Below, in pieces: positions 1 through 36,105 of a stretch of 64,000 nucleotides of DNA. Source of the stretch: Chloroflexota bacterium (GTDB lineage Bacteria; Chloroflexota; Anaerolineae; J036; Brachytrichaceae); contig JAJYKL010000004.1 of NCBI GenBank assembly GCA_021788625.1, positions 38,273 to 102,272 on the forward strand. Reading direction: 5' to 3'. Numbering within the stretch: position 1 is the stretch's first letter; each line of letters begins with the position of its first letter. A program made the translations under genes and the position numbers. The notes under the pieces were generated by a model. It ran no database searches. It was not told the origin of the DNA and saw nothing but the letters and a program-made list of their open reading frames with translations.

Positions 1-662
1 GTTGGGTCACCGTTGTAAACGGCCTCCACGAAGCTAAAACCGAGGCCGGAGAGGGTACGCTGGATTAGGCGCAAGGTATTGAAGCGATAACGGACCGGGT
101 ACGTGTCATGCTCCTGCCGCCCCTGCAGGCGGCGCGAGAGCCGGTCGTGCAGTGCATGCGGCGCGAGCCGGATCAGCCAGGTGGTGTAGTTCCATGCGTT
201 GGGCGTGAGGAAGAGCACATGTCCGCCCGGCCGCAGCACGCGATAGATCTCGCCGAAGGTGCGAGCCGGGTCGATCAGGTGCTCGCACAGCCACGCCGAA
301 GTGACGACGTCGAAGGACCTGTCGCGGAAAGGCTGGTCTTCGGCCAGCGCGGCGATGCGCTGCCGTACAGTGGTGTTCAGGCGCAGCGCCTGCTCGTCGG
401 CGTCCAGGCCGCAGGTGAGCCCGGCGCGTGCGTAGACGGGCGACAGGAAGTCTGCGTGGCCGCAGCCGATATCGAGGACGGCGGCGCCAGGGCGCATGTA
501 GCGATCCACCACATCGCGGAAGACGTACAGACTGTGTCGCCAGCCGGGCTTGCGCCGGGCATACAGTTGGCGGAAATACTCCTGCCGGTTGGTATCGCGA
601 TGAGGAGCCGCACTTTCCGACGGGTGCGCTGGCGATGTTTCATGATCGGTTGATGGATGCAT
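1..662 (-). CDS. Class I SAM-dependent methyltransferase, partial (C-terminus beyond window start)
   Basis: Reverse-strand frame from ATG at 662 reads MHPSTDHETSPAHPSESAAPHRDTNRQEYFRQLYARRKPGWRHSLYVFRDVVDRYMRPGAAVLDIGCGHADFLSPVYARAGLTCGLDADEQAL...YRVLRPGGHVLFLTPN; motif I (VLDIGCG) and post-motif VLRPGG present. Absent from the ORF track because it runs off the edge. Confidence 0.85.
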   Translation of the reverse strand, partial: MHPSTDHETSPAHPSESAAPHRDTNRQEYFRQLYARRKPGWRHSLYVFRDVVDRYMRPGAAVLDIGCGHADFLSPVYARAGLTCGLDADEQALRLNTTVRQRIAALAEDQPFRDRSFDVVTSAWLCEHLIDPARTFGEIYRVLRPGGHVLFLTPNAWNYTTWLIRLAPHALHDRLSRRLQGRQEHDTYPVRYRFNTLRLIQRTLSGLGFSFVEAVYNGDP

Positions 663-718
663 AGTCAACCTGATCATTGTACGGGTTTCAACCTAGTAAG
701 TTGATCAACACGTTGCGG

Positions 719-1963
719 TCACTCATCACCCCACCAGGGCTCGCCATCGGCGAGGTTGGCCTTCAGGTATTCCTGGTCGAGCACAATGCCTAAGCCGGGA
801 TGAGTGGAGATGAGCATACGACCGTCGCGGATGACTGGTTTGTTGCCGGCGGCCTCGGGGGCCTGGTCGGCGTTGCGAACACACTCCATGCGTGGGCAGT
901 TGAAAACGGCCGCAGACCATTGCTGTGAGGCCATGTTCAACACATAGCCACTGACGTTGTGCAGGCTCACCGGGATGCGATAGAGTGCGGCGATGTCTGC
1001 GATGATATGTGTGCCAGTGATGCCGCCGGAGTTGATCAGATCCGGTTGCAGACAGTCGATTGCCTGGTTCTGGATGAATGGCAACGCCCCTTCGGGCAGC
1101 TCGATGTTCTCGCCGGTCATGATCGGCAGGCGCGTGGCGTGGCGCAGCGCCATCCACGCGTCAGAATAGACTGGCGCGATGGGATCTTCCAGGTACAGGG
1201 GTTTGATCGGCTCCACGGCCTGAGCCACCTGGATGGCGCTGGGCAGGTCCAGCTCGTTGTGGCAGTGCACGATGATGTCGATACCGTCTCCCAGCGCTTC
1301 GCGCGCCAGGGCGTAGGCACGGCGCACCCTATCCACTTCCTGTGGACCGAGGTTGGGAGTGTACTGCTGCATGGGTGTGCCCAGGATATGATGGATGTCG
1401 ATCTTGTAAGCCTTAAAGCCGTGCGGATCGTCTTTGAGTTGTTGAGCTCGAGCGCGCCACTCGTCACGGCTTAGGAAATCCCCTCCTGCACAATGCGAGT
1501 ATAGGGGAATTTCCGTACGGAAATTCCCTCCCAATAACTTCGAGACAGGCTGACCGAGCAGCTTGCCGGCAAGGTCCCAGAGTGCAATATCTATCCCGCT
1601 CAGCACGCGCATCTGCCTACCGCGCTGAGGGTAAGCGTAAAACATGTTATGGTAATGCACCTGAATTGCCAGGGGATCCTTACCGATGAGTCCCAGGTGT
1701 GGCAGGCGCGGGCCTTCGAGTCCTGCTATGGCGGAACGTGCAAGCGGGCCGGTTGCTCCACATGCACCGTAGCCACAGATGCCGGCGTCCGTTTCTACCT
1801 TGACCAAGGTAGTTCCATGCCGGGGCTGCATGGCCTTTATGGCTGTAATTTTTACCTGCCCTTGTACTGAGCGAGCTGCCACGTTTAGTGGGTTTACTGG
1901 CTGGGCAGGATCGCTGGCGGATGGGTTAGGCGAAGAAGTGGATGGCAAAGGATTTTGAGACAT
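719..1963 (-). CDS. Enolase-superfamily (mandelate racemase / RspA / mannonate dehydratase-like) protein
   Basis: VKVETDAGICGYGACG..., GIDIALWDLAGKLLGQPVSKLLGG, YLEDPIAP, TGENIELPEG, DLINSGGITGTHIIADIAALY are typical of MR/enolase-superfamily dehydratases. Confidence 0.85.
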   Translation of the reverse strand: MSQNPLPSTSSPNPSASDPAQPVNPLNVAARSVQGQVKITAIKAMQPRHGTTLVKVETDAGICGYGACGATGPLARSAIAGLEGPRLPHLGLIGKDPLAIQVHYHNMFYAYPQRGRQMRVLSGIDIALWDLAGKLLGQPVSKLLGGNFRTEIPLYSHCAGGDFLSRDEWRARAQQLKDDPHGFKAYKIDIHHILGTPMQQYTPNLGPQEVDRVRRAYALAREALGDGIDIIVHCHNELDLPSAIQVAQAVEPIKPLYLEDPIAPVYSDAWMALRHATRLPIMTGENIELPEGALPFIQNQAIDCLQPDLINSGGITGTHIIADIAALYRIPVSLHNVSGYVLNMASQQWSAAVFNCPRMECVRNADQAPEAAGNKPVIRDGRMLISTHPGLGIVLDQEYLKANLADGEPWWGDE

Positions 1964-2354
1964 ATGAAACCTTCCTGGGTGGTGCGATATTGTTTAGTGA
2001 TCATTGATTGAAACATGCGTAAAAGGTGCGTTGTTGTCAGAAGTTTTGAGTGGCTCAATGGTGGTTCGGGTGCTTTGCGGGTGGAGTGTGGTTGGGCGAG
2101 CGACAGCGAATACAACATGGCTAACTCCCTGAATATGATGGTCCATTTCAGGCCAGGTGTGTTATGGCTGATCACATTGGGATTATAGGCAGCATACTTC
2201 GGAAAAAACAGTAACAGGTCTGCTGCTGCATGTGAATCATTGTTCATGGGTGATTGTTAAGATCAACAATGGCGAAGTGGTTTAGAATCCTCTTATATAC
2301 CCCCAAAGAGCGCACTGACATATATAAAAATAGCCGAAAAAAAGCAAAAAAGCA

Positions 2355-2383
2355 TTTACAACGCCTACCTTTAGATTTATACT
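2355..2383 (+). promoter_or_regulatory. Sigma70-like promoter upstream of SH3b gene
   Basis: TTTACA (2355-2360), 17-nt spacer, TATACT (2378-2383), 43 nt before the ORF at 2426, in an AT-rich intergenic stretch. Confidence 0.5.
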
Positions 2384-2425
2384 GCTAATTAGTGATAGAG
2401 GAGCGCGGAATGGGTTGGGGGAATT

Positions 2426-3010
2426 ATGACAACTGTGTTTCGGTCGCGCGCTTCGATGGATGGTGTGGCGCGGAGATCAAGGCACGCTCATAACGATAAA
2501 AGGCGTGATAACCTATATCTTCCAGTGCAACCCGCACTGGCTCTTGAACACCGTCGGTTACGTTGGATCAGACTGATCATTATCTCCGGTGTTTGTTTGG
2601 TCCTGGCAATGGTTTTCCTGCAGCATCTATACCTGCCGGTGGGGCAGGGAGCGTCTGTAAACGAGGTCGCAGGCACACCTGTTGTGACCGTACAGTTTAC
2701 TTCTGGAACTTCGGTACCATCAGCCAGCAACGTGGCACAGCCGGTGAGCCGGCAAATGCCCGATCAAGCAACACAACCGAGTTTGACAGTCGTCAGCGAC
2801 CTGGGGTACGTGAACGTACGCAGTGGACCTGGCGTAGAGTATGGGCAACTCGCTACGCTTGCCAGTGGGACACGTGTGGTGGTGACAGGGCGGAGTGCTG
2901 ACGGAACATGGTGGCAGATTACATTCAGCGGGAAGACGGGTTGGGTATTCGGTCAACTAACGCATTTCGACGGTGATTTGTCGCAGGTGCCAGTGGTCAC
3001 GTCACCATAG
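2426..3010 (+). CDS. Membrane-anchored SH3b (bacterial SH3) domain protein
   Basis: One N-terminal TM (WIRLIIISGVCLVLAMVFL) then GYVNVRSGPGVEYGQLATLASGTRVVVTGRSADGTWWQITFSGKTGWVF, a classic SH3_3 motif. Confidence 0.85.
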   Translation: MTTVFRSRASMDGVARRSRHAHNDKRRDNLYLPVQPALALEHRRLRWIRLIIISGVCLVLAMVFLQHLYLPVGQGASVNEVAGTPVVTVQFTSGTSVPSASNVAQPVSRQMPDQATQPSLTVVSDLGYVNVRSGPGVEYGQLATLASGTRVVVTGRSADGTWWQITFSGKTGWVFGQLTHFDGDLSQVPVVTSP

Positions 3011-3256
3011 GCCCTTAATGATGCCTGCAACCCCTGGAACATCGCAATACCCTGTATCAATCCACGCGTTATTCTGAAAGTTAAGGCGAGCGACAGGAAA
3101 ACACCGCATTGACGATCGGTTAGCCCTTCCTGAAACTTGCCGATGATCGCACTGCGCATACCCTCCTCGCAAGAGAGATACTACATTCGTAATCTGTAAT
3201 ACCAGAATTCATCAGGTCACCATTGCCCACAAAGCAGGTGCATAATCGCGTCTACG

Positions 3257-8356: not shown

Positions 8357-9997
8357 GTGTATGAGGTAATGACGATGCAAAGGCTTAGTTCCACCCGAAC
8401 CATCTTTTTCCTGATCATTGGCGTCGCTCTGATCGTGGTATGCGTTGCTTTGGCGAATACCTTTATCGTAAATAAACTGACTGCTACGCCCACTGCTGCA
8501 CCGCTCGTGGTGTCGTCAGCGGGTGCACAAACGCCGCAGGTGAACCTGCAGTCACCCGCGCCGGTGTTCGCCCCAGGCACCAACACTAAGGATGGCCTGC
8601 CTACGTATATCTGCGGAGCTGATTCGTTTGGCAGTTACTTTACGCTGCAGCAGATGCAAATGTCCGGCAAGGATGTAGCACATGGATTCCACCTGGGGAT
8701 AGTGCCATTCCTGCTGGACAATAACACCGCCTACGACGTCTCGGAGGAACAGCGCACAGCCCTGTTAAGTGCGGGCAAGTGGAATTGTCTGCTCACCACG
8801 CTGGATTCGGTAGCCCTCTCCAGCCCGGGCATCATTACAGCCATCATCGATGAGAGTGCAGGCGCGGATCAGTTATGGGGACGTGACATAAAAACAATAA
8901 ATGACCTGAAAGGCAAGCGCATCGCTTTTTCGCGCGGCAGCGTGAGTGAGTACTTCGTCGATTACACCCTCTCCATCGCGCGCCTGAACCCGCATACCGA
9001 CGTGACGCTTATGCCGGAAGATACAGTCGACGATGCCGTGAAAGCATTCGTCGATAGGAAAGCGGATGCTGTGGCTGCCTGGGAGCCAAACATCTATGAT
9101 GCCAAACAAGCTGGCGGCACACCGCTCCTGAGCTCTGCCCAGATGCGCATCGTGATTGATGTGATCGTGACCTCACGCCAGTCCATCACCACGCAGGCTG
9201 ACCTGGTGCAGAAGTTCCACGACGCCTGGTTCGATACGCTCAAAGTACAGGAAGACAACTTTGACAGTGCGGCCGCCCAGATCGCGAAATGGGGCCACAA
9301 CGACTGGTCTGGCATTAGTGTAGCGACCGCCAGCCAGGACCTGAAGACAGCATTGCAAAGCGTGGCACAGGCTGATCTGGGTGACAACGCTTACGTGATG
9401 AACAACACTGCGCCACTCATAAACCGTCTGGCGACCGCACGGCGGGTATGGGCAGCCTCAGGTGAGACAGTCCCGAATGACAATGTAGCCGACCTGGTGA
9501 ACCCCGGCTACGTTACGCGCTCGGCTGCTCAGGCATCGCTGCAAGCCAATGGTAAACCGGTAAATGATACGTTCTCCATGTCCACAAAACTGGACCTGAG
9601 TGGAGTGAACACGACCGATGCGGCGACGCTCGCGGTACTGCCGTGCCGTTCGTTCACATTCGTTCCAGAGTCCACGTCACTGACGATCGAATCGCGCCGC
9701 ATTCTGGATGATTGCGTGGTACCCACCATGCAACAGAGCGTTGGGTTATTCCTGCGTGTCAAGGGGTCGGCAGCATGGCCAGGACCTCAAGGTACGTACA
9801 AGCAACAGGACATTCTGTCGATCGCTCAGGCGCGCGCACAGGCGGTGGTGGATTATCTTGTTTCACAGGGCATCGATCGCAGCCGTTTTATCGTTGAAGC
9901 AACACTACCCCCTAAAGATCATTGGGAGACCGAAGACCCCGACATCCAGGCCCAGGATCGCTATGTGGAGCTGACACTGCTCACCGTTGGGCGGTAG
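8357..9997 (+). CDS. Membrane-anchored NMT1/PstS-like substrate-binding domain fused to C-terminal OmpA-like peptidoglycan-binding domain
   Basis: N-terminal TM (TIFFLIIGVALIVVCVALANTF); SBP segment LKGKRIAFSRGSVSEYFVDYTLSIARLNPHTDVTLMPEDTVDDAVKAFVDRKADAVAAWEP; OmpA motif DILSIAQARAQAVVDYLVSQGIDRSRFIVEA. Confidence 0.8.
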   Translation: MYEVMTMQRLSSTRTIFFLIIGVALIVVCVALANTFIVNKLTATPTAAPLVVSSAGAQTPQVNLQSPAPVFAPGTNTKDGLPTYICGADSFGSYFTLQQMQMSGKDVAHGFHLGIVPFLLDNNTAYDVSEEQRTALLSAGKWNCLLTTLDSVALSSPGIITAIIDESAGADQLWGRDIKTINDLKGKRIAFSRGSVSEYFVDYTLSIARLNPHTDVTLMPEDTVDDAVKAFVDRKADAVAAWEPNIYDAKQAGGTPLLSSAQMRIVIDVIVTSRQSITTQADLVQKFHDAWFDTLKVQEDNFDSAAAQIAKWGHNDWSGISVATASQDLKTALQSVAQADLGDNAYVMNNTAPLINRLATARRVWAASGETVPNDNVADLVNPGYVTRSAAQASLQANGKPVNDTFSMSTKLDLSGVNTTDAATLAVLPCRSFTFVPESTSLTIESRRILDDCVVPTMQQSVGLFLRVKGSAAWPGPQGTYKQQDILSIAQARAQAVVDYLVSQGIDRSRFIVEATLPPKDHWETEDPDIQAQDRYVELTLLTVGR

Positions 9998-10085
9998 ACA
10001 GTTTATATGGCCGGCGTCAGGCTCCATGGTTACATCGTTCATGGCTGCCGATATGGACAGCCTGTTTGATGAAGGTGGGTGAAGC

Positions 10086-11747
10086 ATGCTACGAAAAGCT
10101 TCAGGCTTGCTCAGAATTCTTTCATTCGTCACGGTGACAGGCTTATTGGCAACGGCATGCGAGATGAGTGCTGGCGATGTGCCGAGTAATGCGGCAGTTG
10201 TCAAGGTGGTTGCCAATACCAACCTGACTCCTTGGCTGAAGGGGACTGTTGACCAATTCAACCAGGCAAGCGTAAAGATCAGCAATGGCCAGCAAGCGTA
10301 CGTTCAACTGCAGTCGGTTGATGCAGGCCAGGCGGCGGCTGACATGACGAGTGGGACATCTTTACCCGGCCTGTGGATCCCCGACGACGATGCCTGGGTA
10401 GCGGTGCTGGCGAGCAAGGGGCAGGCGGCGTTCCAGGGAGATTGCCAGAGTGTGGCCAAGAGTCCACTGGTGATCGCTATATGGCGCCCGATTGCCGAGG
10501 CGCTGGGTTGGCCAGGTCGTGCGCTGGGCTGGTTGGATCTAGGCACCCTGGCAGCCGACCCTTCGTCGTGGGCCTATTACACGGGTGGCCAATACGGGGC
10601 AACACTACGCGTTGGTCACACCCACCCAGGGCTTTCGGGTAGCGGCAGCGATACCCTCCTGGCTGTGGTGCATGCAGCCAGGAACAAGACGTCAGCCTTG
10701 ACGGCTGCTGACATCAACGACCCCGTTGTACAGGCTTCTGTAACAGCCTTTGAAGGCACGGTGGCTACCTTCAGCCAGTCGACCGAGCAGCTCGGACAAA
10801 CGATGGAAACACGAGGGATCAAGTACCTGAGCGCGGCCATCATGTACGAAAGCACGGTTGTGAATGACGGGGGTGGCGGTGCAGATGGACTGGTAGCGGT
10901 ATACCCTTACGAGGGCACCTTCATGTCCACCAACCCAGCCTGTGTGAATGGTACGGCGAGTGCTCCGGTGCAGGAAGCGGCGCGAGCTTTTCGCGATTTC
11001 CTGCTTAAGCCTCAAGCACAACGAGCTGCGCTAGCTGCCGGGTTGCGTCCCGTGAATAATAGCGTGCCTCTCAGCTCGCCTATTGACGCTGCTCACGGTG
11101 TGGACCCCGCGCAACCAAAGGTGCTTTTTAGCGCCCCGAATGCCGAGTCGGTGTTGGCGGTGGGGCAGTTATGGCAGGCTGCGCGTAAAGCAGTCAACCT
11201 GTTTATGCTGATCGATACGTCGGGCAGCATGCAGGGCGAAAAGATCGACGCTGTGCGTAACGCAGCAGAGCAATTTGTCAAGCAGATGGGTGATAGCGAT
11301 TACCTGACACTCATTACCTTTGCCAGCCGCACTAATGTATTGATCGATCACCGCAAAGTGAGTGACGTCCGTGACAGCGCGGTGCAGCAGATCGATGGAA
11401 TACAGGCTGGCGGTAACACCACACTCTACGACACGATTGGGGAGGCGGCAGACCTGATCGCCAAAACGAACAGTTCGCAGACCAGTAATGCGATCGTATT
11501 GCTGACAGATGGCCAGGACACATCCAGTTCTCACTATGAGTTTAACCAGGACCTGATCGATAAAGCCGCTGCGAACAATACCACCGTGTTCACTATTGCT
11601 TACGGAAGCGATGCAGACACAAATGTGCTATCTCAACTGGCCAGCCAGGGGCGCGGCCAGTTTTTCCAGGGTGATCAGGCTAACATTGCCAGCATTTACC
11701 AGCAGATGTCGGCAGCCTTTGGTGGATCCGTTGGCATCGGACGATAA
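10086..11747 (+). CDS. Lipoprotein with substrate-binding domain fused to C-terminal von Willebrand factor A (VWA) domain
   Basis: Lipobox-like LLATAC; SBP region; VWA MIDAS NLFMLIDTSGSMQGEKIDAVRNAAEQFV with downstream NAIVLLTDGQDTSS. Confidence 0.85.
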   Translation: MLRKASGLLRILSFVTVTGLLATACEMSAGDVPSNAAVVKVVANTNLTPWLKGTVDQFNQASVKISNGQQAYVQLQSVDAGQAAADMTSGTSLPGLWIPDDDAWVAVLASKGQAAFQGDCQSVAKSPLVIAIWRPIAEALGWPGRALGWLDLGTLAADPSSWAYYTGGQYGATLRVGHTHPGLSGSGSDTLLAVVHAARNKTSALTAADINDPVVQASVTAFEGTVATFSQSTEQLGQTMETRGIKYLSAAIMYESTVVNDGGGGADGLVAVYPYEGTFMSTNPACVNGTASAPVQEAARAFRDFLLKPQAQRAALAAGLRPVNNSVPLSSPIDAAHGVDPAQPKVLFSAPNAESVLAVGQLWQAARKAVNLFMLIDTSGSMQGEKIDAVRNAAEQFVKQMGDSDYLTLITFASRTNVLIDHRKVSDVRDSAVQQIDGIQAGGNTTLYDTIGEAADLIAKTNSSQTSNAIVLLTDGQDTSSSHYEFNQDLIDKAAANNTTVFTIAYGSDADTNVLSQLASQGRGQFFQGDQANIASIYQQMSAAFGGSVGIGR

Positions 11748-27496: not shown

Positions 27497-30400
27497 ATGA
27501 TTACAGCCGGTCAAGTCCTCCAAAATCGTTATCGTATCGATGCCCTGCTCGGAAAGGGCGGTATGGGTGCTGTTTTTAAGGCGTTTGATCTTTCCCTGCA
27601 TCGCACAGTCGCCATCAAACTGCTCGCTCCGCACCTGGTGTGGGAGACGGATTTTGTAGAGCGTTTCATGCGTGAAGCGCGTGCGGCTGCTAACCTGCGC
27701 CACCCAGCCATCATCGATATTCATGATGTGGGGCAAGATGGCGATGACCATTTTTTTATCATGGCGTACCTATCGGGTGGCACGCTCAAAGCCAGGATTC
27801 AGGCGAGTGGACACCTGCCACTGGATGAGGTACTACGCATCCTGCATCCCATTTCTGATGCACTGGATTATGCGCATGCCGAAGGACTAATACACCGTGA
27901 TGTAAAACCCGCTAACGTGATGTTCGATCAACGGGGTCAGCCGGTATTGACCGACTTCGGGATCGTTAAGGCAGCGCAAGAGACCAAGCTCACAGCGACG
28001 GGCACCTCTTTGGGCACGCCACAGTACATGGCGCCTGAGCAGGTACTGGGTAAAGGGGTCGATGGGCGGAGCGATCAATATGCCCTGGGCATCATCGCAT
28101 ATGAATTATTGACCGGGAAGGTTCCATTCGATGGTGAATCTACAACTGTCATCCTGCATAAACAAGTGTACGAGCCTCCCCCGTTGATATGCTCCCTTGC
28201 ACCCGGGCTACCTCCCGCTGTGGACGATGTGATAAGACGTGTGCTGGCCAAGACACCCGCAGATCGCTATAACTCGTGCAGTGAATTTGTAACCAGCCTC
28301 GAGCATGCACTCAAGCCGACTACGCTAAAGATTGCACCCACACCGCCACCCGACATTGAATCAATGCTCTTAGCGAACACAGCGCCTGAAACGCCTGCAC
28401 CAATTGCTACGTTCGTGCCAGAGAGCATTGATCATCCTGACATTAAGAAGCAGTTCGAGCCGGACAAGAGCCATGATGACCTGGCAGGGGCGACCATCCC
28501 TTTGGATGCTAACAGGCAACCTGTTGTGGAACACGAGCATCAGGGGGCCAAGCAACACGAGCGCGACGTGGTTGAGCCACCAGCGCAGGATGGAAGCACG
28601 AAATCATTGGCCGAAACGCCGGGTCCTTCTGCGGTCGAGCCGCCGCGTCAAGAGGCCACGAGTGAGTCACATCCCGCGCTTCGGAAAACCTCGCTCAGCA
28701 GACGTGCAGTCCTCATTGGCATAACCGGTCTCGCAGCGGGTGGAACGCTTTACTGGCTGCTGGCGAACCGGGTGCCGTCAACTCAACCACCATCCACCGA
28801 AACGGAGGTACCGAGCGAGCCGACTCCTGAACCGACCTCGACGAAAGAGACTGAAGCTCCCACCGCCACGGGTTCCACGAGTGGAGATGTTGCTGAAGGC
28901 GAGATCAAGGTGGCGATCATTGCTCCTCTCTCGGGTTCGGAAACTCCGCTGGGCGAGTCGACACGTAATGGAGCGTTACTAGCGATTGATCAGTGGAACT
29001 CCCGTGGTGGTGTATTGGGACGGCGCATTCAGCCTATCGTAGCGGATGGGCAGTGCGCCGCTGACGCTGCCTTAAATGCTGCACGCAAGGTGGTCGAGCA
29101 GGATGGCGTGAAGTTCATAATAGGAGAAGTATGCTCCAATGCGTCCATATCAATATCGGACTATGCCACCTCCATGAAGGTCATACAGATCAGCCCTGCC
29201 TCCACGAATCCTGCAGTCACGGTTGATCCCAGTGGTACGGTGAAGAATTATGTGTTCCGCACCTGTTATACAAATGCCTTGGAAGGCACTGCCGCTGCCT
29301 GGTTTGCTCTGGACAACCTGAAAGCCAGAACAGCTTTCATTTTCGATGAGCGCGATAACACGTACATGATCGGTCTGGCCGACTATTTTGAGAAGGCTTT
29401 CAGTAATGGAGGTGGTCGGGTAGTTGGCAGGACGAGTTATGCGGGCGGCGATACTGACTTCACGGCTAATCTGGACGAGATTGACCATGTGAAACCTGAT
29501 GTAATCTATCTGCCTGCTGACGCAAGCGTCGCGAACCTGATGACCAGGCAGGCTAAGGGACGCAGCATGACGATACCTTTCGTGGGCAGCGAAGGCTGGT
29601 ACACACCAGACCTGGACCTTGGGGCGGCTGAAAACAATTTCTTCACTGCCCATTACGCAAACGATGATCCCCGGTCCGAGGTACAGGATTTCGTTCACGC
29701 GTTCACCCAGAAATACCGCGATGATAAGCAGCAACCACTGATGCCGAATGAGTGGGCTGCTTTGGGTTATGATGCGGCTAGCATGCTATTCCAGGCGATC
29801 GGTGAAGCGGGCAACGACGATCCAGAGGTGGTGAAAGAAAACTTCGTTAAGATTGAATATACGGGAGTTACCGGCGTCATGCAGTTTGATGATGCACATA
29901 ATCCGGTAAAGAGCATCGTGATTATGCATGTGCGGAATGGGATGATCTCGTATGATACTTCCATAGGCCCACACCCTGTCGCGTCACCTGGTGGCAACGG
30001 AGAGCAGGCTCTCACATCACTCAAGGTAGGCCTGTTGGCTGATGCGGGTGATATGACCCAGCAGTCCTACAACCGGGTTGCCTGGAGTGCAATCCAGAGG
30101 GCAGCGCAAGAGTTCAGTTTTATAGTCAGCAATATGGAGGCAAAGCAACCTGCCGACTATGAGATCATCATCGACCAGTTCGCAGCCGATCATTGCGGCG
30201 TAGTCATTGCTGCTGGCTTCAGGATGAGCGATGCCGTTGCCGTGAAAGCGATCCAATATCCAGATATCCAGTTCGCGATTGTTGACCATGCCTATTACCC
30301 GACTAGAGGCGCCTCCGTCTGCGACGAGACCAAGAAAGACTGTTACGCCGATGGAGGACTGAATAACGTGACCAGCTTGATGTTCAGGGAGGACCAGGCA

Positions 30401-30982
30401 GGTTTCCTGGCAGGCGTGGTCGCTGCGGGTGTATCCATGAAAGGCATGGTATGCACGGTTGCTGGCATGGAAATCCCGCCGGTGCAACGGTTTGTAATGG
30501 GCTATGAAAATGGCGCAAGGTGGATAAAACCTGATGTGAAAGTACTGCACATCTACGCGCCTTCGTTTACTGACCCAGCCTGGGGTACTAAGGCGGGTAA
30601 CGACATGATCCAGCAGGGCTGCGATGTGGTGTTCGGAGCAGGAGGCGAAACCGGCGACGGTGGCTTGATGGCTGCCATGCAGGCCGGTGTGGCCGCGATC
30701 GGGGTGGATGTCGACCAGTACGAAACCTTTCCTAACGTGAAAGAGGCACTGATTACAAGTGCAATGAAGAATGTAGAAGCTGCGGTGTACGAGTACCTTA
30801 AGAGTGTCCATGAGCAAGCCAATCGGGCTGGTATCGCCATGGCAGATCTTCGGAACGGCGGAATTGGTCTCGCTCCTTACCATGACTGGGAATCGAAAGT
30901 GCCTACACTGGTGAAGGCGAAAGTAAAAGAAGCCATCGATGGGTTAATAACCGGCCAGCTATCGACTGGTGTTCCCTTTTAA
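27497..30982 (+). CDS. Transmembrane Ser/Thr protein kinase with two extracellular periplasmic-binding domains: LivJ-type and BMP/PnrA-like
   Basis: Kinase: GKGGMGAVFKAFD, HRDVKPANVMFD, DFGI, MAPEQ. Single TM ~28699-28773. LivJ-like: EIKVAIIAPLSGSETPLGESTRNGALLAIDQWNSRGGVLGRRIQPIVADGQC (~28908-29985). BMP-like: LKVGLLADAGDMTQQSYNRVAWSAIQRA...FREDQAGFLAGVVAAGVS...VGVDVDQYETFP-type core (~30024-30979). Confidence 0.88.
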   Translation: MITAGQVLQNRYRIDALLGKGGMGAVFKAFDLSLHRTVAIKLLAPHLVWETDFVERFMREARAAANLRHPAIIDIHDVGQDGDDHFFIMAYLSGGTLKARIQASGHLPLDEVLRILHPISDALDYAHAEGLIHRDVKPANVMFDQRGQPVLTDFGIVKAAQETKLTATGTSLGTPQYMAPEQVLGKGVDGRSDQYALGIIAYELLTGKVPFDGESTTVILHKQVYEPPPLICSLAPGLPPAVDDVIRRVLAKTPADRYNSCSEFVTSLEHALKPTTLKIAPTPPPDIESMLLANTAPETPAPIATFVPESIDHPDIKKQFEPDKSHDDLAGATIPLDANRQPVVEHEHQGAKQHERDVVEPPAQDGSTKSLAETPGPSAVEPPRQEATSESHPALRKTSLSRRAVLIGITGLAAGGTLYWLLANRVPSTQPPSTETEVPSEPTPEPTSTKETEAPTATGSTSGDVAEGEIKVAIIAPLSGSETPLGESTRNGALLAIDQWNSRGGVLGRRIQPIVADGQCAADAALNAARKVVEQDGVKFIIGEVCSNASISISDYATSMKVIQISPASTNPAVTVDPSGTVKNYVFRTCYTNALEGTAAAWFALDNLKARTAFIFDERDNTYMIGLADYFEKAFSNGGGRVVGRTSYAGGDTDFTANLDEIDHVKPDVIYLPADASVANLMTRQAKGRSMTIPFVGSEGWYTPDLDLGAAENNFFTAHYANDDPRSEVQDFVHAFTQKYRDDKQQPLMPNEWAALGYDAASMLFQAIGEAGNDDPEVVKENFVKIEYTGVTGVMQFDDAHNPVKSIVIMHVRNGMISYDTSIGPHPVASPGGNGEQALTSLKVGLLADAGDMTQQSYNRVAWSAIQRAAQEFSFIVSNMEAKQPADYEIIIDQFAADHCGVVIAAGFRMSDAVAVKAIQYPDIQFAIVDHAYYPTRGASVCDETKKDCYADGGLNNVTSLMFREDQAGFLAGVVAAGVSMKGMVCTVAGMEIPPVQRFVMGYENGARWIKPDVKVLHIYAPSFTDPAWGTKAGNDMIQQGCDVVFGAGGETGDGGLMAAMQAGVAAIGVDVDQYETFPNVKEALITSAMKNVEAAVYEYLKSVHEQANRAGIAMADLRNGGIGLAPYHDWESKVPTLVKAKVKEAIDGLITGQLSTGVPF

Positions 30983-31006: not shown

Positions 31007-33022
31007 ATGCTGGCCGCTGGCCAAGTCCTAGCCAATCGTTATCGCATTGACTCTCAACTTGGGAAAGGCGGTATGGGCGCGGTGTACCAGGCATATGACC
31101 TGACACTCGGCCGTACGGTGGCGATTAAGCTGCTAGCCCCTCAACTGGCTTGGGAAACGGAATTCGTCGAGCGTTTCCAGCGTGAAGCCCATTCCACTGC
31201 CAGTCTGCACCACCCGAACATCATCGACGTGCACGATGTGGGTCACGAAGGTGATAACTACTACCTCGTCATGGCCAACCTGCCAGGCGGGACGCTCAAG
31301 CAGAGACTTTCGAATAAAGGTCATCTGCCACCAGACGAGGTGATTGGCATCCTGCGACCTATCGCTGCGGCGTTGGATTACGCCCATGCGAAGGGGCTGG
31401 TGCACCGTGACGTAAAGCCCGCCAACGTATTATTCGACGAGCTGGGTACACCCGTTCTGACAGACTTTGGCATCGTCAAAACCGCCCAAGACACAAAGCT
31501 TACAGCGACGGGAGCATCCATCGGCACGCCGCAGTATATGGCACCTGAACAGGTGTTGGGTAAAGTAGTAGATGGCCGCACGGATCAATATGCTCTGGGC
31601 GTCATTGCGTATGAGTTACTGACGGGGCGGGTTCCGTTTGCAGGTGATACAACTACCACGATCCTCTACAAGCAGGTTCATGAGACACCTCCACCCGTTC
31701 GCTCGTTTGCTTCGCATCTACCAGCAGGCGTAAACGGCGTATTGAGACGCGTGTTGGAGAAATCACCGGACAAACGCTACCGAAATTGCGCTGATTTCGT
31801 GGCTGATCTGGAACGAGCGCTCAAGCTCCCGAGAACCAGGGAACAGGTGCTGCCGGAGCCTAAAGTTGATACGACAATTGTGTTGCCCGACGCGACGCTG
31901 CCAATGTCTCGCCCACAATCAGGCCAGGCAGGCATAGTTCCTGACGGCTCATTACAGGCGGCACCACACAACCTTAAGAACAGAGGATTGACGCGCAGAG
32001 CTTTCCTGATTGCGACGGCGGGCATCGCAGTAGGAGGAGGTGTGGGATTATTCCTGATCATCCGCCCAGTCAGACCAACTCCGGGCGTTACCCCAACTCT
32101 GCCAGCGACAGATCAGCAGAACAATACACCCAGCACCACCAGCATGTCGGAGCCAACGGCAACCCTGATGCCAACAGATACCTCCAAACCGACCGAAACC
32201 ACTGCAGCCCAGCCAACCCCGCTGGTTCAGGTCACACGGGTGAATGACCATGCTGTCATGCTCCCCCTCGCAGCAGGTGTAGCACTGGAATTCTTACGTA
32301 TACCAGCCGGGGCATTCCTGATGGGCAGTGCAGACACGGACAAGGATGCTCTGGCAAATGAGAAGCCGCAGTCGACCGTGTTGCTGGGTGAATACTGGAT
32401 CGGCAGGTATGAGGTGACGAACGCACAGTTCCGGGTATTCGTCCAGGCGTCTGGTTACCGGACAACGGCGGAGCAGAATGATTCGTCAGGTGCGAACTGG
32501 CAGCATCCGGGTGGTGCTGGCAGTGATCTGACCGGCAAAGACAATTATCCTGTGGTACAGGTTAGCTGGGATGATGCAGTGGCTTTTAGTACATGGGCAG
32601 TTAAGCAGACCGGGTATGAGATTCGACTGCCAAGTGAAGCCGAGTGGGAGAAGGCTGCCCGTGGTACGGACGGGAGATTGTACCCCTGGGGAAATAACGT
32701 GCCAGGCCTTACTCTCGCAAATGTTGGCATGAATGTTGGAGCTACCACACCTGTAGGCAAGTACAGCCCGCAGGGTGACAGCCCATATGGGGTGGCAGAC
32801 ATGGCAGGCAATGTCTCGGAGTGGACGAGTAGCCTGTATATGCCCTATCCCTATAAGGCTAACGATGGGCGGGAGAACCAGCAGAGCCGTGACCTGAGGG
32901 TGATAAGAGGGGGGAACTATTTTCTGGGTGCGAAGATTGCCCGCTGTGCGGCACGGAGCGGAGGAGATCCGACAAACTCCAGTAGTTATTACGGCTTCCG
33001 AATCGCTGTGACCGTCATTTAG
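31007..33022 (+). CDS. Transmembrane Ser/Thr protein kinase with C-terminal FGE-sulfatase (SUMF1-like) domain
   Basis: Kinase: LGKGGMGAVYQAYD, HRDVKPANVLFDE, DFGI, MAPEQ. TM ~31990-32070. FGE-like: FLRIPAGAFLMGSADTDKDALANEKPQ, VSWDDAVAFSTWA, RLPSEAEWEKAARGTDGRLYPWGN, ADMAGNVSEWTS, RVIRGGNYFLGAKIARCAARSGGDPTNSSSYYGFRI. Confidence 0.9.
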   Translation: MLAAGQVLANRYRIDSQLGKGGMGAVYQAYDLTLGRTVAIKLLAPQLAWETEFVERFQREAHSTASLHHPNIIDVHDVGHEGDNYYLVMANLPGGTLKQRLSNKGHLPPDEVIGILRPIAAALDYAHAKGLVHRDVKPANVLFDELGTPVLTDFGIVKTAQDTKLTATGASIGTPQYMAPEQVLGKVVDGRTDQYALGVIAYELLTGRVPFAGDTTTTILYKQVHETPPPVRSFASHLPAGVNGVLRRVLEKSPDKRYRNCADFVADLERALKLPRTREQVLPEPKVDTTIVLPDATLPMSRPQSGQAGIVPDGSLQAAPHNLKNRGLTRRAFLIATAGIAVGGGVGLFLIIRPVRPTPGVTPTLPATDQQNNTPSTTSMSEPTATLMPTDTSKPTETTAAQPTPLVQVTRVNDHAVMLPLAAGVALEFLRIPAGAFLMGSADTDKDALANEKPQSTVLLGEYWIGRYEVTNAQFRVFVQASGYRTTAEQNDSSGANWQHPGGAGSDLTGKDNYPVVQVSWDDAVAFSTWAVKQTGYEIRLPSEAEWEKAARGTDGRLYPWGNNVPGLTLANVGMNVGATTPVGKYSPQGDSPYGVADMAGNVSEWTSSLYMPYPYKANDGRENQQSRDLRVIRGGNYFLGAKIARCAARSGGDPTNSSSYYGFRIAVTVI

Positions 33023-33033
33023 CCTGGTGCTCG

Positions 33034-36000
33034 TCACACCACCGGTAAGGTGAACGAGATGGTGGCTCCAGAGTAGGTGTTCTGCTCGAAACCAATCCGC
33101 CCGCCGTGGGCTTCGACCAGCCCCTTGCAGATGGCGAGACCCAAACCGGCGCCTTTTGTCTGTCGCGCACTTCCATTACTGCCCCGGCGGAAAGCCTCAA
33201 AAACGAACGGCATATCCTCTGGAGCGATGCCCAGGCCTTCGTCTGCCACAGTCACTTTCACCGCATCGCCTTGATGCCGGGCTGTGACTCTAATGGTAGT
33301 GCCGGCTGGCGAGTATTTTGCAGCATTACCGACCAGGTTGATGAGCACCTGGGTGATACGTTGGGCATCGACCCGTACGACAGGCAGATTCATCGGGAGG
33401 TCAATGCTGAGCGTGTGGGCTCTGGTGAGTAGTTGCAGTTGGGGCTGTGCAGATTCCACAATAGGAGCCAGAGTCTGGTCGTGTGGATCGATGCGGAGCG
33501 TACCAGCTTCGATACGACTCAGATCCAGCAACTGATCGATCATATCGGTGAGTTTATCTGCCTCCTGATCGATAATCCCTACATATTCGTGCCAACTCGT
33601 CTCGTCCCACGTCACATCCTGGGCCAGTAGAGTCGTGGCAAAACCTTTAATCGAGGTGAGCGGGGTGCGTAGCTCGTGGCTGATCATACCCAGGAAACGC
33701 AGACGCAATGCTGTTTGGCGTTCAGCCTCCTGCTGGGCCTGTTCCGCCTGCCTTCGAGCAGCCGTCTCCGCCATAAACAGGCGCTCACGCTCCTGTTCAG
33801 CTTGTTTCCGTCTGGTGATGTCGATGTTCATCCCCACCCATTTATAGATCGAACCATTGGGGAGTAGCAGCGGAGCTGCATGCATGTTCGTCCAGCGCCA
33901 GCCACCCATGGCACTGCGCAGACGGAATTCTGCGTTGACCGGCGTGCCGTCGCGCACGGAGTCGCGCCAAAGCTGTTCGGCGTACGCACGGTCCTCTGGA
34001 TGAACAGCGGCACTCCAGCCCATTCCGAGCCATTCATCAACACTCTGCCCCGTATATGCGCGCCAGCTTGGCGAATCGACTACCGCGTTACCCTGCGCAT
34101 CGGTTTCCCACACAGCCTGGGATAATACTTCCACCAGAGCACGGAAACGCTCTTCACTTTCACGTTGCGCATCCTCGGCCAGTTTAAGATCTGTAATGTC
34201 CAGGAATGCACCAATGGCTCCTGCTGGGTGACCCATAGCATCCTGTACAGGTATGACATTGCCCTGGAGTGAGTGCACTGTCCCATCGTTGAACACGATT
34301 TCCATCGCGTAATCGAGCAAGGCCTGCCCTGTGGCTGCTACACGCTGCATGGGCATGTCAATGGGCGACAGCTCGACTCCGTCATGATGAACCCGGTAAT
34401 GCGCAAGGCGCCCGGTCTCTGTTCCCGTCTTGGACAGGTTGGTGCCCGGTCCGACTCGGAGTAGGTCTGTCGCATCACGATTTCCAGAGATTTCACGACA
34501 TTCACTATCATGCGCGATCCAGATGATAGCTGGCGTAGTGTCCAAGACCGCCTGCAGACGTGCCGTTTGCTCATGGGCCCGTTCCTCGCTTATTCGAAGG
34601 CGTTGTTCGGTGTGACGCTGTTGTGTGACATCATGCCCCACTGCCACTGCACCGGTCAGGCTACCCTGGTCATCAAACAAGGGAGCGGCATTCCAAACGC
34701 AGTTGATCTCGCGGCCCTCAGTGGTGCGTTGGACGACTTCGACGTCACGCACCCATTCACCGAAGAGAGCGGCGCGCTGCAAGGGCAGATCCTGCGGAAC
34801 AAAGAGTGTGCCGTCTGAGCGGTAGAGCTGGTAAAAGTCGGATTGAGTATCCAGGTTCTGATTGAGGTCTATCGTACGGTCGACAAGGTTCGAGTAAGCG
34901 GGATTCATGTACACCGATCGCCCCAGTGAGTCGCATACCGCCACGGGATCCGGCATGTTTTCGACCATGGTCTGCCAGCGTCTGCGTTCAGTGGCAAGGT
35001 CCGCGAGTAAACTCTCCCGTTCGTGTTCCGCCTGTCGGCGTGAGGTGATATCGTGATTAACCACTACATAGCCAGTACAGATGCCATGGGCGTCGCGTAA
35101 AAGGATCGTGTACACGCTGATCGTTAAGCGGCGATCGTCGCGGGTATACAGAGCCAGCTCAGTGGATACGGAATGGCCCAGCTGCAGTTCCCGCTCAATC
35201 GCGGAACGCTGCTCATCGGGTAGTTCAGGGCGCAAGATATCTGTCAGGCTCTTGTTAAGGACCTCTTCTGCTTTCCAGCCATACACCTGTTCAGCGGCTT
35301 TGTTCCACGAGGTAATCTGGAATGACAGGTCCGTAGCGATGACTGCATCATTGATCGCATCCAGGATGCTGGCCTGCAAATGGAGTTGGCTTGTTGAGCG
35401 CTTATGCTCGGTGATGTCGGCGAACATGAATACGGCGGCACGGAGAGTACCAGCCGGAGCATACACAGGTGCGATCGTTACCGTGGCGGGAACGGACATA
35501 CCGTCCGCGCAACGCAGTTCGCACTCTCCGCCCCATATACCGTTCTGTTTGAGTGTGGCGATGATGAGGGTAGCGGGTGTGGAGTCGGCACAGTTCATCA
35601 CGAGTTGCTCGACCTGCTGACCGATCATCTCCTTAGAATGCCAACCGAACATATGCTCAGCCGCCTGGTTGCAATAGATGATCGTACCTTGGGGATCTGC
35701 GCCGAGTACAGCCAGTCCGACTGCATCCAGCAGTTGAGTGGATAGCGCCGGTGTCGTGTCAATGTTGTGCTCCTTCACCTGGTCGCGACTGGCATCAACA
35801 GAAAGGGAGGCAGTCTGCCGAATGACCTTATCGACTGAATCCGAATGAATGAGTGCATCCGGTGTGCCCGGCATATCCGGAGTATTCCCAATGTCCATAC
35901 AATGGCCTCGGATTTGTATATTGCTCGCACAAGTGACTTCAAACGTAACCGGCTGACCGGTGGGTGGCGTGTGTTCTGTGATACAGACTGCTTCGATGAG

Positions 36001-36105
36001 ATAGGTTGGCCTGTAGCTGGAAAAGATTATAGCAACAAGGCTGGCGATAACCAACATAGAATAGGCTAAAGTGTGAACCATGAGTGACAGACAGGATGTA
36101 CTCAA
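33034..36105 (-). CDS. Multi-PAS (about five PAS domains) sensor histidine kinase
   Basis: PAS/PAC repeats, H-box FLGMISHELRTPLTSIKGF, N-box NLVGNAAKYSPAGT, G-box DEGLGIAPEDMPFVFEAF / GAGLGLAICKGLVEAHGGRI. Longest ORF overlaps the divergent epimerase start; an internal start such as ATG at 35898 (MDIGNTPDMPG) is plausible. Confidence 0.88.
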   Translation of the reverse strand: MSTSCLSLMVHTLAYSMLVIASLVAIIFSSYRPTYLIEAVCITEHTPPTGQPVTFEVTCASNIQIRGHCMDIGNTPDMPGTPDALIHSDSVDKVIRQTASLSVDASRDQVKEHNIDTTPALSTQLLDAVGLAVLGADPQGTIIYCNQAAEHMFGWHSKEMIGQQVEQLVMNCADSTPATLIIATLKQNGIWGGECELRCADGMSVPATVTIAPVYAPAGTLRAAVFMFADITEHKRSTSQLHLQASILDAINDAVIATDLSFQITSWNKAAEQVYGWKAEEVLNKSLTDILRPELPDEQRSAIERELQLGHSVSTELALYTRDDRRLTISVYTILLRDAHGICTGYVVVNHDITSRRQAEHERESLLADLATERRRWQTMVENMPDPVAVCDSLGRSVYMNPAYSNLVDRTIDLNQNLDTQSDFYQLYRSDGTLFVPQDLPLQRAALFGEWVRDVEVVQRTTEGREINCVWNAAPLFDDQGSLTGAVAVGHDVTQQRHTEQRLRISEERAHEQTARLQAVLDTTPAIIWIAHDSECREISGNRDATDLLRVGPGTNLSKTGTETGRLAHYRVHHDGVELSPIDMPMQRVAATGQALLDYAMEIVFNDGTVHSLQGNVIPVQDAMGHPAGAIGAFLDITDLKLAEDAQRESEERFRALVEVLSQAVWETDAQGNAVVDSPSWRAYTGQSVDEWLGMGWSAAVHPEDRAYAEQLWRDSVRDGTPVNAEFRLRSAMGGWRWTNMHAAPLLLPNGSIYKWVGMNIDITRRKQAEQERERLFMAETAARRQAEQAQQEAERQTALRLRFLGMISHELRTPLTSIKGFATTLLAQDVTWDETSWHEYVGIIDQEADKLTDMIDQLLDLSRIEAGTLRIDPHDQTLAPIVESAQPQLQLLTRAHTLSIDLPMNLPVVRVDAQRITQVLINLVGNAAKYSPAGTTIRVTARHQGDAVKVTVADEGLGIAPEDMPFVFEAFRRGSNGSARQTKGAGLGLAICKGLVEAHGGRIGFEQNTYSGATISFTLPVV

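Follow-up and report, generated by a model that had tools for sequence, protein, structure and literature searches.

The open reading frame (ORF) at positions 27497-30982 (+) of the window, the whole 64,000-nucleotide stretch of DNA analysed here, encodes K1, a receptor Ser/Thr kinase (STPK) of 1161 amino acids whose ectodomain carries a LivJ-like and a Bmp-like binding domain in series. Our preferred reading, to which we give a probability of roughly 0.6, is that K1 is a two-input, single-pass receptor kinase whose solute-binding protein (SBP) modules were taken over from same-genus transporters and whose autophosphorylation would be controlled by ligand. Judged by its domains, K1 probably senses one amino-acid-like and one nucleoside-like molecule, and from its architecture we infer that it integrates two signals; its topology, dimerisation, ligands, and kinase activity are likewise predicted.

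The frame starts with ATG, has no internal stop, and coincides exactly with the bounds given above, and the Pfam matches for all three of its domains far exceed the curated cut-offs. The Pkinase domain (residues 12-259; 27530-28273, +; 1.7e-48), whose best solved relatives are PknA and PknB, has intact catalytic motifs: GKGGMG (19-24), VAIK (38-41), HRDVKPAN (133-140), DFG (153-155), and APE (179-181). By this domain and its Lys, HRD, DFG, and APE motifs, K1 is a Hanks-type Ser/Thr kinase of predicted activity. Behind it lies a juxtamembrane linker at about residues 275-399 (28319-28693, +), which had been described as Pro/Glu rich; its composition is indeed rich in both, but Ala and Thr are prominent too (Pro 19, Ala 17, Glu 12, and Thr 12 over residues 276-420), so it is not mainly a Pro/Glu linker. 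Hydropathy and motif then place a single transmembrane (TM) segment, led by SRRAVL and resembling a Tat-type twin-arginine anchor, at residues 401-422 (28697-28762, +); it is the only hydrophobic segment of the protein (about 403-422), with SRR just before it. The LivJ-like domain (residues 469-814; 28901-29938, +) matches Peripla_BP_6 at 2.2e-55 over profile positions 1-341 of 343. A flexible linker (residues 824-839; 29966-30013, +; pLDDT <50) separates it from the Bmp/PnrA-like domain (residues 847-1147; 30035-30937, +), which matches Bmp at 1.8e-51 over positions 6-284 of 301. The original prediction of one polypeptide with a complete STPK, one TM segment, and two complete SBP domains is thus borne out by the ORF, Pfam, AlphaFold, and Foldseek alike: all three kinase motifs that it named (GKGGMG, HRDVKPAN, and DFG) are present, and the profile search recovers both SBP domains, each nearly full length. 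Nor is K1 a decaying gene: silent changes predominate strongly over replacement changes (pN 0.21-0.30 versus pS 0.74-0.83, with dS saturated), and the idea of a pseudogene was rejected on this ground.

An AlphaFold model of residues 466-1161, built from 54 sequences, had a mean pLDDT of 93.1, with only residues 824-839 disordered; its pTM of 0.58 means that the relative placement of the two binding domains is not predicted. In Foldseek comparisons, the LivJ-like half matched LivK/LivJ structures (3td9 and 4gnr), and the Bmp-like half matched the nucleoside binders Lbp (7x0r), BmpD (6shu), and PnrA (6y9u and 2fqw). Domain and fold assignments therefore agree for each half, and the BMP/PnrA-like domain that had been proposed is confirmed by a complete Bmp match together with the PnrA/BmpD/Lbp fold. 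The accompanying description of "two unrelated SBP folds" is doubtful, as we take both domains to be members of the periplasmic-binding-protein type I superfamily. A profile-profile comparison of LivJ with Bmp from shallow alignments gave a probability of 9.5%, which neither supports nor contradicts such a kinship; for the K1 ectodomains we prefer the more cautious "two families of one fold."

Both SBP modules are best read as captured from ABC transporters of K1's own genus and then changed fast, because both nest within the transporter SBPs of that genus on branches that are several-fold longer. In maximum-likelihood trees, the LivJ part falls among the LivJ transporter proteins of its own genome and genus (support 100/99) on an end branch of 0.97 versus 0.12, while the Bmp part groups with Bmp transporter proteins from two species of the genus (support 100/100) on an end branch of 0.55 versus 0.04-0.08. 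Among LivJ proteins the closest, about 54-55% identical to the K1 part, is a lipoprotein whose gene comes first in a LivJHMGF operon of K1's genome; the closest Bmp (65% identity) is encoded at the head of a nucleoside-type ABC operon of a sister species. K1 is not itself a lipoprotein component of an ABC operon: its SBPs form a kinase ectodomain, and ABC genes were absent among the neighbours examined.

The two pockets have fared differently. Twenty SBPs were aligned and compared at the LivJ contacts Tyr18, Ser79, Thr102, Tyr150, Tyr202, Glu226, and Phe276, with Glu226 presumed by us to be a ligand-contact position. LivJ ligand contacts have been given from docking (PMC6983066). K1 retains the equivalents of Ser79, Thr102, Tyr150, and Glu226 (S547, T570, Y623, and E699), and E699 is nearer to E. 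coli LivJ than is the Asp found in the relatives. Tyr202, a Tyr in 20/20 of the compared SBPs, has become D675; L485 and W753 stand at the Tyr18 and Phe276 positions, and the FIDPFQG of LivJ relatives reads YTNALEG. A carboxylate/amine ligand is still possible for this domain, with a side-chain pocket that would be new or failing, and the ligand may differ from that of the relatives or have been lost. The assignment of a branched-chain-amino-acid-type domain thus stands for the complete Peripla_BP_6 domain and its fold, but with the amino-acid pocket altered, a branched-chain amino acid is unsafe as the ligand of K1.

In BmpA numbering, the Bmp pocket comprises Asp19, Asp24, Phe27, Asp98, Phe151, Phe176, Ala200, Val224, Asp225, and Lys242, and that of BmpD includes Asn28 (PMC13325309). 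K1 retains D849, N859, D930, F999, F1024, A1048, V1070, D1071, and K1091; Phe27 is replaced by Y858, BmpC likewise having Tyr, and Asp24, the sole position lost, by Q855. The base-stacking aromatics (Y858 and F1024) and the ribose contacts (D930, D1071, and K1091) are therefore present. Among 163 Bmp columns invariant across nine relatives, 43 are altered in K1 (each relative, when withheld from the set, alters 1-4, the most distant one altering 22), and the 43 include the specificity loop, rewritten from GGVNDKSFN to GDMTQQSYN. With the pocket mostly kept and this loop rewritten, nucleoside-type binding with changed specificity is plausible. Loss of the ligand pockets, which the original prediction had raised against itself, has come about only in part: the Bmp pocket is mostly kept, and the LivJ pocket keeps its anchors but lacks Tyr202 and is reshaped.

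Under the two-input reading, the kinase domain would be cytoplasmic and the TM segment, resembling a twin-arginine signal anchor, would cross the membrane, with the LivJ-like clamshell adjoining the membrane and the Bmp-like clamshell held distally by a short, flexible tether. An amino-acid-like ligand at the LivJ domain, a nucleoside-like ligand at the Bmp domain, or both would close the clamshells, and closure would alter dimerisation of the ectodomain. Trans-autophosphorylation of the PknB-like kinase domains would then be activated or relaxed, so that the output of K1 would report on nutrient availability. By analogy with PknB-type kinases, with CdgH, and with GlnH-GlnX-PknG, ligand closure would be expected to change both dimerisation and kinase activity. 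CdgH of Vibrio cholerae, like K1, carries two tandem periplasmic binding domains on one signalling protein; these differ in the amino acids that they bind, and the dimer they form responds to ligand (PMC5431781). Unlike K1, CdgH is a diguanylate cyclase, and both of its domains belong to one family, PBPb. GlnH-GlnX-PknG passes a signal from an SBP to an STPK in response to nutrients (PMC6069109, PMC9769921) but is made up of three separate proteins with one SBP and a soluble kinase. With the PknB/PASTA-type kinases (PknA, PknB, and StkP), K1 shares a PknB-type kinase, a juxtamembrane linker, one TM segment, and an extracytoplasmic C-terminal sensor; unlike them, it has two SBPs as its ectodomain and no PASTA repeats, and it falls below the cut-off of the NCBIfam model PknB_PASTA_kin (NF033483; 339 versus 450 bits), the PASTA domain being absent.

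Some of the evidence above could also be accommodated by a receptor for one ligand, in which binding is left to the Bmp domain, the LivJ domain having degenerated into a stalk or a module for dimerisation by the membrane. The LivJ part has lost Tyr202 and FIDPFQG, sits on the longest branch of its genus, and additionally matches Pfam ANF_receptor (4e-22), and the Bmp part retains about ten of twelve pocket positions; periplasmic-binding-protein type I domains do dimerise in eukaryotic receptors. We nevertheless consider a one-ligand receptor rather unlikely, given the four retained LivJ contacts and the closeness of E699 to E. coli LivJ. The derivation of both modules from same-genus transporter SBPs, with the LivJHMGF operon still in the genome, would also suit ectodomains that, instead of free ligand, bind or survey partners from the transporter, or other SBPs, in a decoy-like manner, leaving the kinase to monitor transport flux. 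Neither a standalone Bmp nor a close Bmp-type ATPase was found in K1's genome (92% complete), so one docking partner seems to be missing, and such a flux monitor strikes us as improbable. The genome is assembled in 204 contigs, and one might suppose that separate kinase and SBP genes were joined by an assembly or annotation artefact. This idea is hardly credible and is contradicted by the open frame of 1161 codons with its two in-frame junctions in linkers, by a GC3 of 0.55-0.60 throughout, and by the SBP parts being just about 54-55% (LivJ) and 65% (Bmp) identical to their nearest standalone copies, too divergent to be collapsed copies; a comparable fusion is known besides, at loci L125/L177 described below. 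The two-input receptor kinase is the reading that we retain.

A Tat-like motif, (S/T)RRx(F/V)LI, opens the TM segment of three STPKs in the genome, namely K1, K2 (described below), and the kinase at L085; the twin-arginine segments are SRRAVLIGITGLAAGG in K1 (28697-28762), TRRAFLIATAGIAVGG in K2 (32000-32080), and TRRSFLIGAAGVAAGG in the kinase on contig C168. In K1, S/T-R-R-x-hydrophobic-L precedes a Gly/Ala-rich hydrophobic segment, and TatC is present in the genome (contig C97). The motif occurs in 3/11 TM-bearing STPKs of the genome versus 1/69 elsewhere (Fisher p 0.007, an uncorrected value for a pattern noticed before testing, in which the paralogues K1 and K2 are not independent). The positive-inside rule accounts for arginines at TM segments in general, and the motif of K1 sits behind a cytoplasmic part of 400 residues, which is unusual for Tat. 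Our hypothesis is that K1 may be exported by Tat via an internal anchor behind its cytoplasmic kinase. The fuller proposal, that K1 is a coincidence or ratio detector for two ligands with its ectodomain exported by Tat via an internal twin-arginine anchor common to a small kinase family, we regard as doubtful.

Between the K1 start and a divergently oriented alpha-mannosidase gene lie 131 bp. K2 (31007-33022, +), identified by ORF, Pfam, and kinase comparison as a paralogous STPK with an FGE-sulfatase-like ectodomain and a TM segment led by TRRAFL, begins 24 bp after the end of K1 and has a ribosome-binding-like sequence of its own, which makes the two genes operon-like. Twelve STPKs were detected in the genome; the kinase domain of K2 is 69% identical to that of K1 and that of a third kinase of the genome 66%, the next best in 99 relatives reaching 50%. 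The FGE-sulfatase-like domain (RGGNYFLGAKIARCAARSG) seems to lack the cysteine pair that we take to be catalytic in formylglycine-generating enzymes, and may thus serve as a sensor, not as an enzyme. Beyond K2 lies a convergent gene for a PAS-rich histidine kinase (33034-36105; Pfam). Elsewhere in the window (8357-11747), two adjoining ORFs carry binding-protein domains, one NMT1-like and the other SBP_bac_11 fused to a VWA domain.

No second ORF joining kinase, LivJ, and Bmp was found among 99 related genomes or 301 genomes of the phylum (ectodomain queries) or 249 genomes of the class (full-protein query), these sets overlapping and the long-query searches scoring two or three candidates per genome, so that rare fusions could be missed. 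A scan of genome contigs for close relatives likewise returned no kinase fusion, and the receptor was found in one genome only, with no orthologue in the sets searched. The nearest named hit, in that scan and among the tree labels, is from Chloroflexota (Thermoflexales), which makes Chloroflexota, class Anaerolineae, the likely placement of K1's genome. These searches lend no support to the idea that the architecture is common in relatives. Two sets of supposed precedents were rejected: no plasmid match reaches 80% coverage of the query, and the long Embleya "open frames" are not kinases, the SBP there being a lipoprotein. We believe that a RefSeq name, "bifunctional serine/threonine-protein kinase/ABC transporter substrate-binding protein," exists; our literature search found no description of an STPK with two SBPs. 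The view that the architecture had not been described before agrees with this search and with the genome sets. Its uniqueness holds for the exact combination, which was not found again, but not for the principle, which recurs in L125/L177 and, with a single SBP, in L132 and L141.

About 86 distinct STPK ORFs were gathered, as a non-random and partly Pfam-scanned sample. Like K1, the STPK L125/L177 (from a related genome) carries a pair of SBP domains one after the other and ends in Bmp; unlike in K1, the first SBP is Phosphonate-bd, and the Bmp and kinase domains are 26% and 45% identical to those of K1. It was assembled independently. L132 and L141 are STPKs with a C-terminal SBP ectodomain that, unlike that of K1, is a single SBP_bac_5, and L146/L176 combines Pkinase, a PD40 beta-propeller, and the start of Peripla_BP_6, one SBP against the two of K1. 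The class also has serial SBP lipoproteins that string together the same families as K1 without a kinase, including Bmp-LivJ lipoproteins in the reverse order (L039/L057); Phosphonate-bd-Bmp lipoproteins (L034/L047) are serial and kinase free as well. Chains of this kind occur often in the class (Bmp-Bmp, Bmp-LivJ, LivJ-LivJ, and Bmp paired with SBP_bac_8 or Phosphonate-bd; loci L033, L037, L038, L039, L040, L041, L043, L054, L057, L058, and L062). Stringing SBPs together is thus an evident tendency, which sometimes extends to kinases, and K1, as far as domain architectures indicate, adds a new combination to it.

Other domain layouts were also observed. On inspection of the sequences, a Bmp domain is apparently fused straight to an ABC permease in one ORF at L042, L045, L046, L050, and L055. 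A secreted-looking ORF of 3323 amino acids (L227:6606-16577) holds a Bmp domain and an SBP_bac_5-like stretch amid repeat-rich, adhesin-like sequence, and in genome G073 tandem ORFs (L176:3605-8149 and 2-3073) each apparently have a pair of successive Pkinase domains ahead of the TM segment.

To our knowledge, stimuli have been established for few bacterial Ser/Thr kinases. Finding them has been called an outstanding question (PMC6069109). The ectodomains of K1 come from transporter families with well-studied ligands and so allow direct guesses at what it binds. K1 also shows receptor evolution in progress, with SBPs taken from same-genus transporters and changing fast once fused, and its bacterial class may more widely tend to put serial SBPs on kinases.
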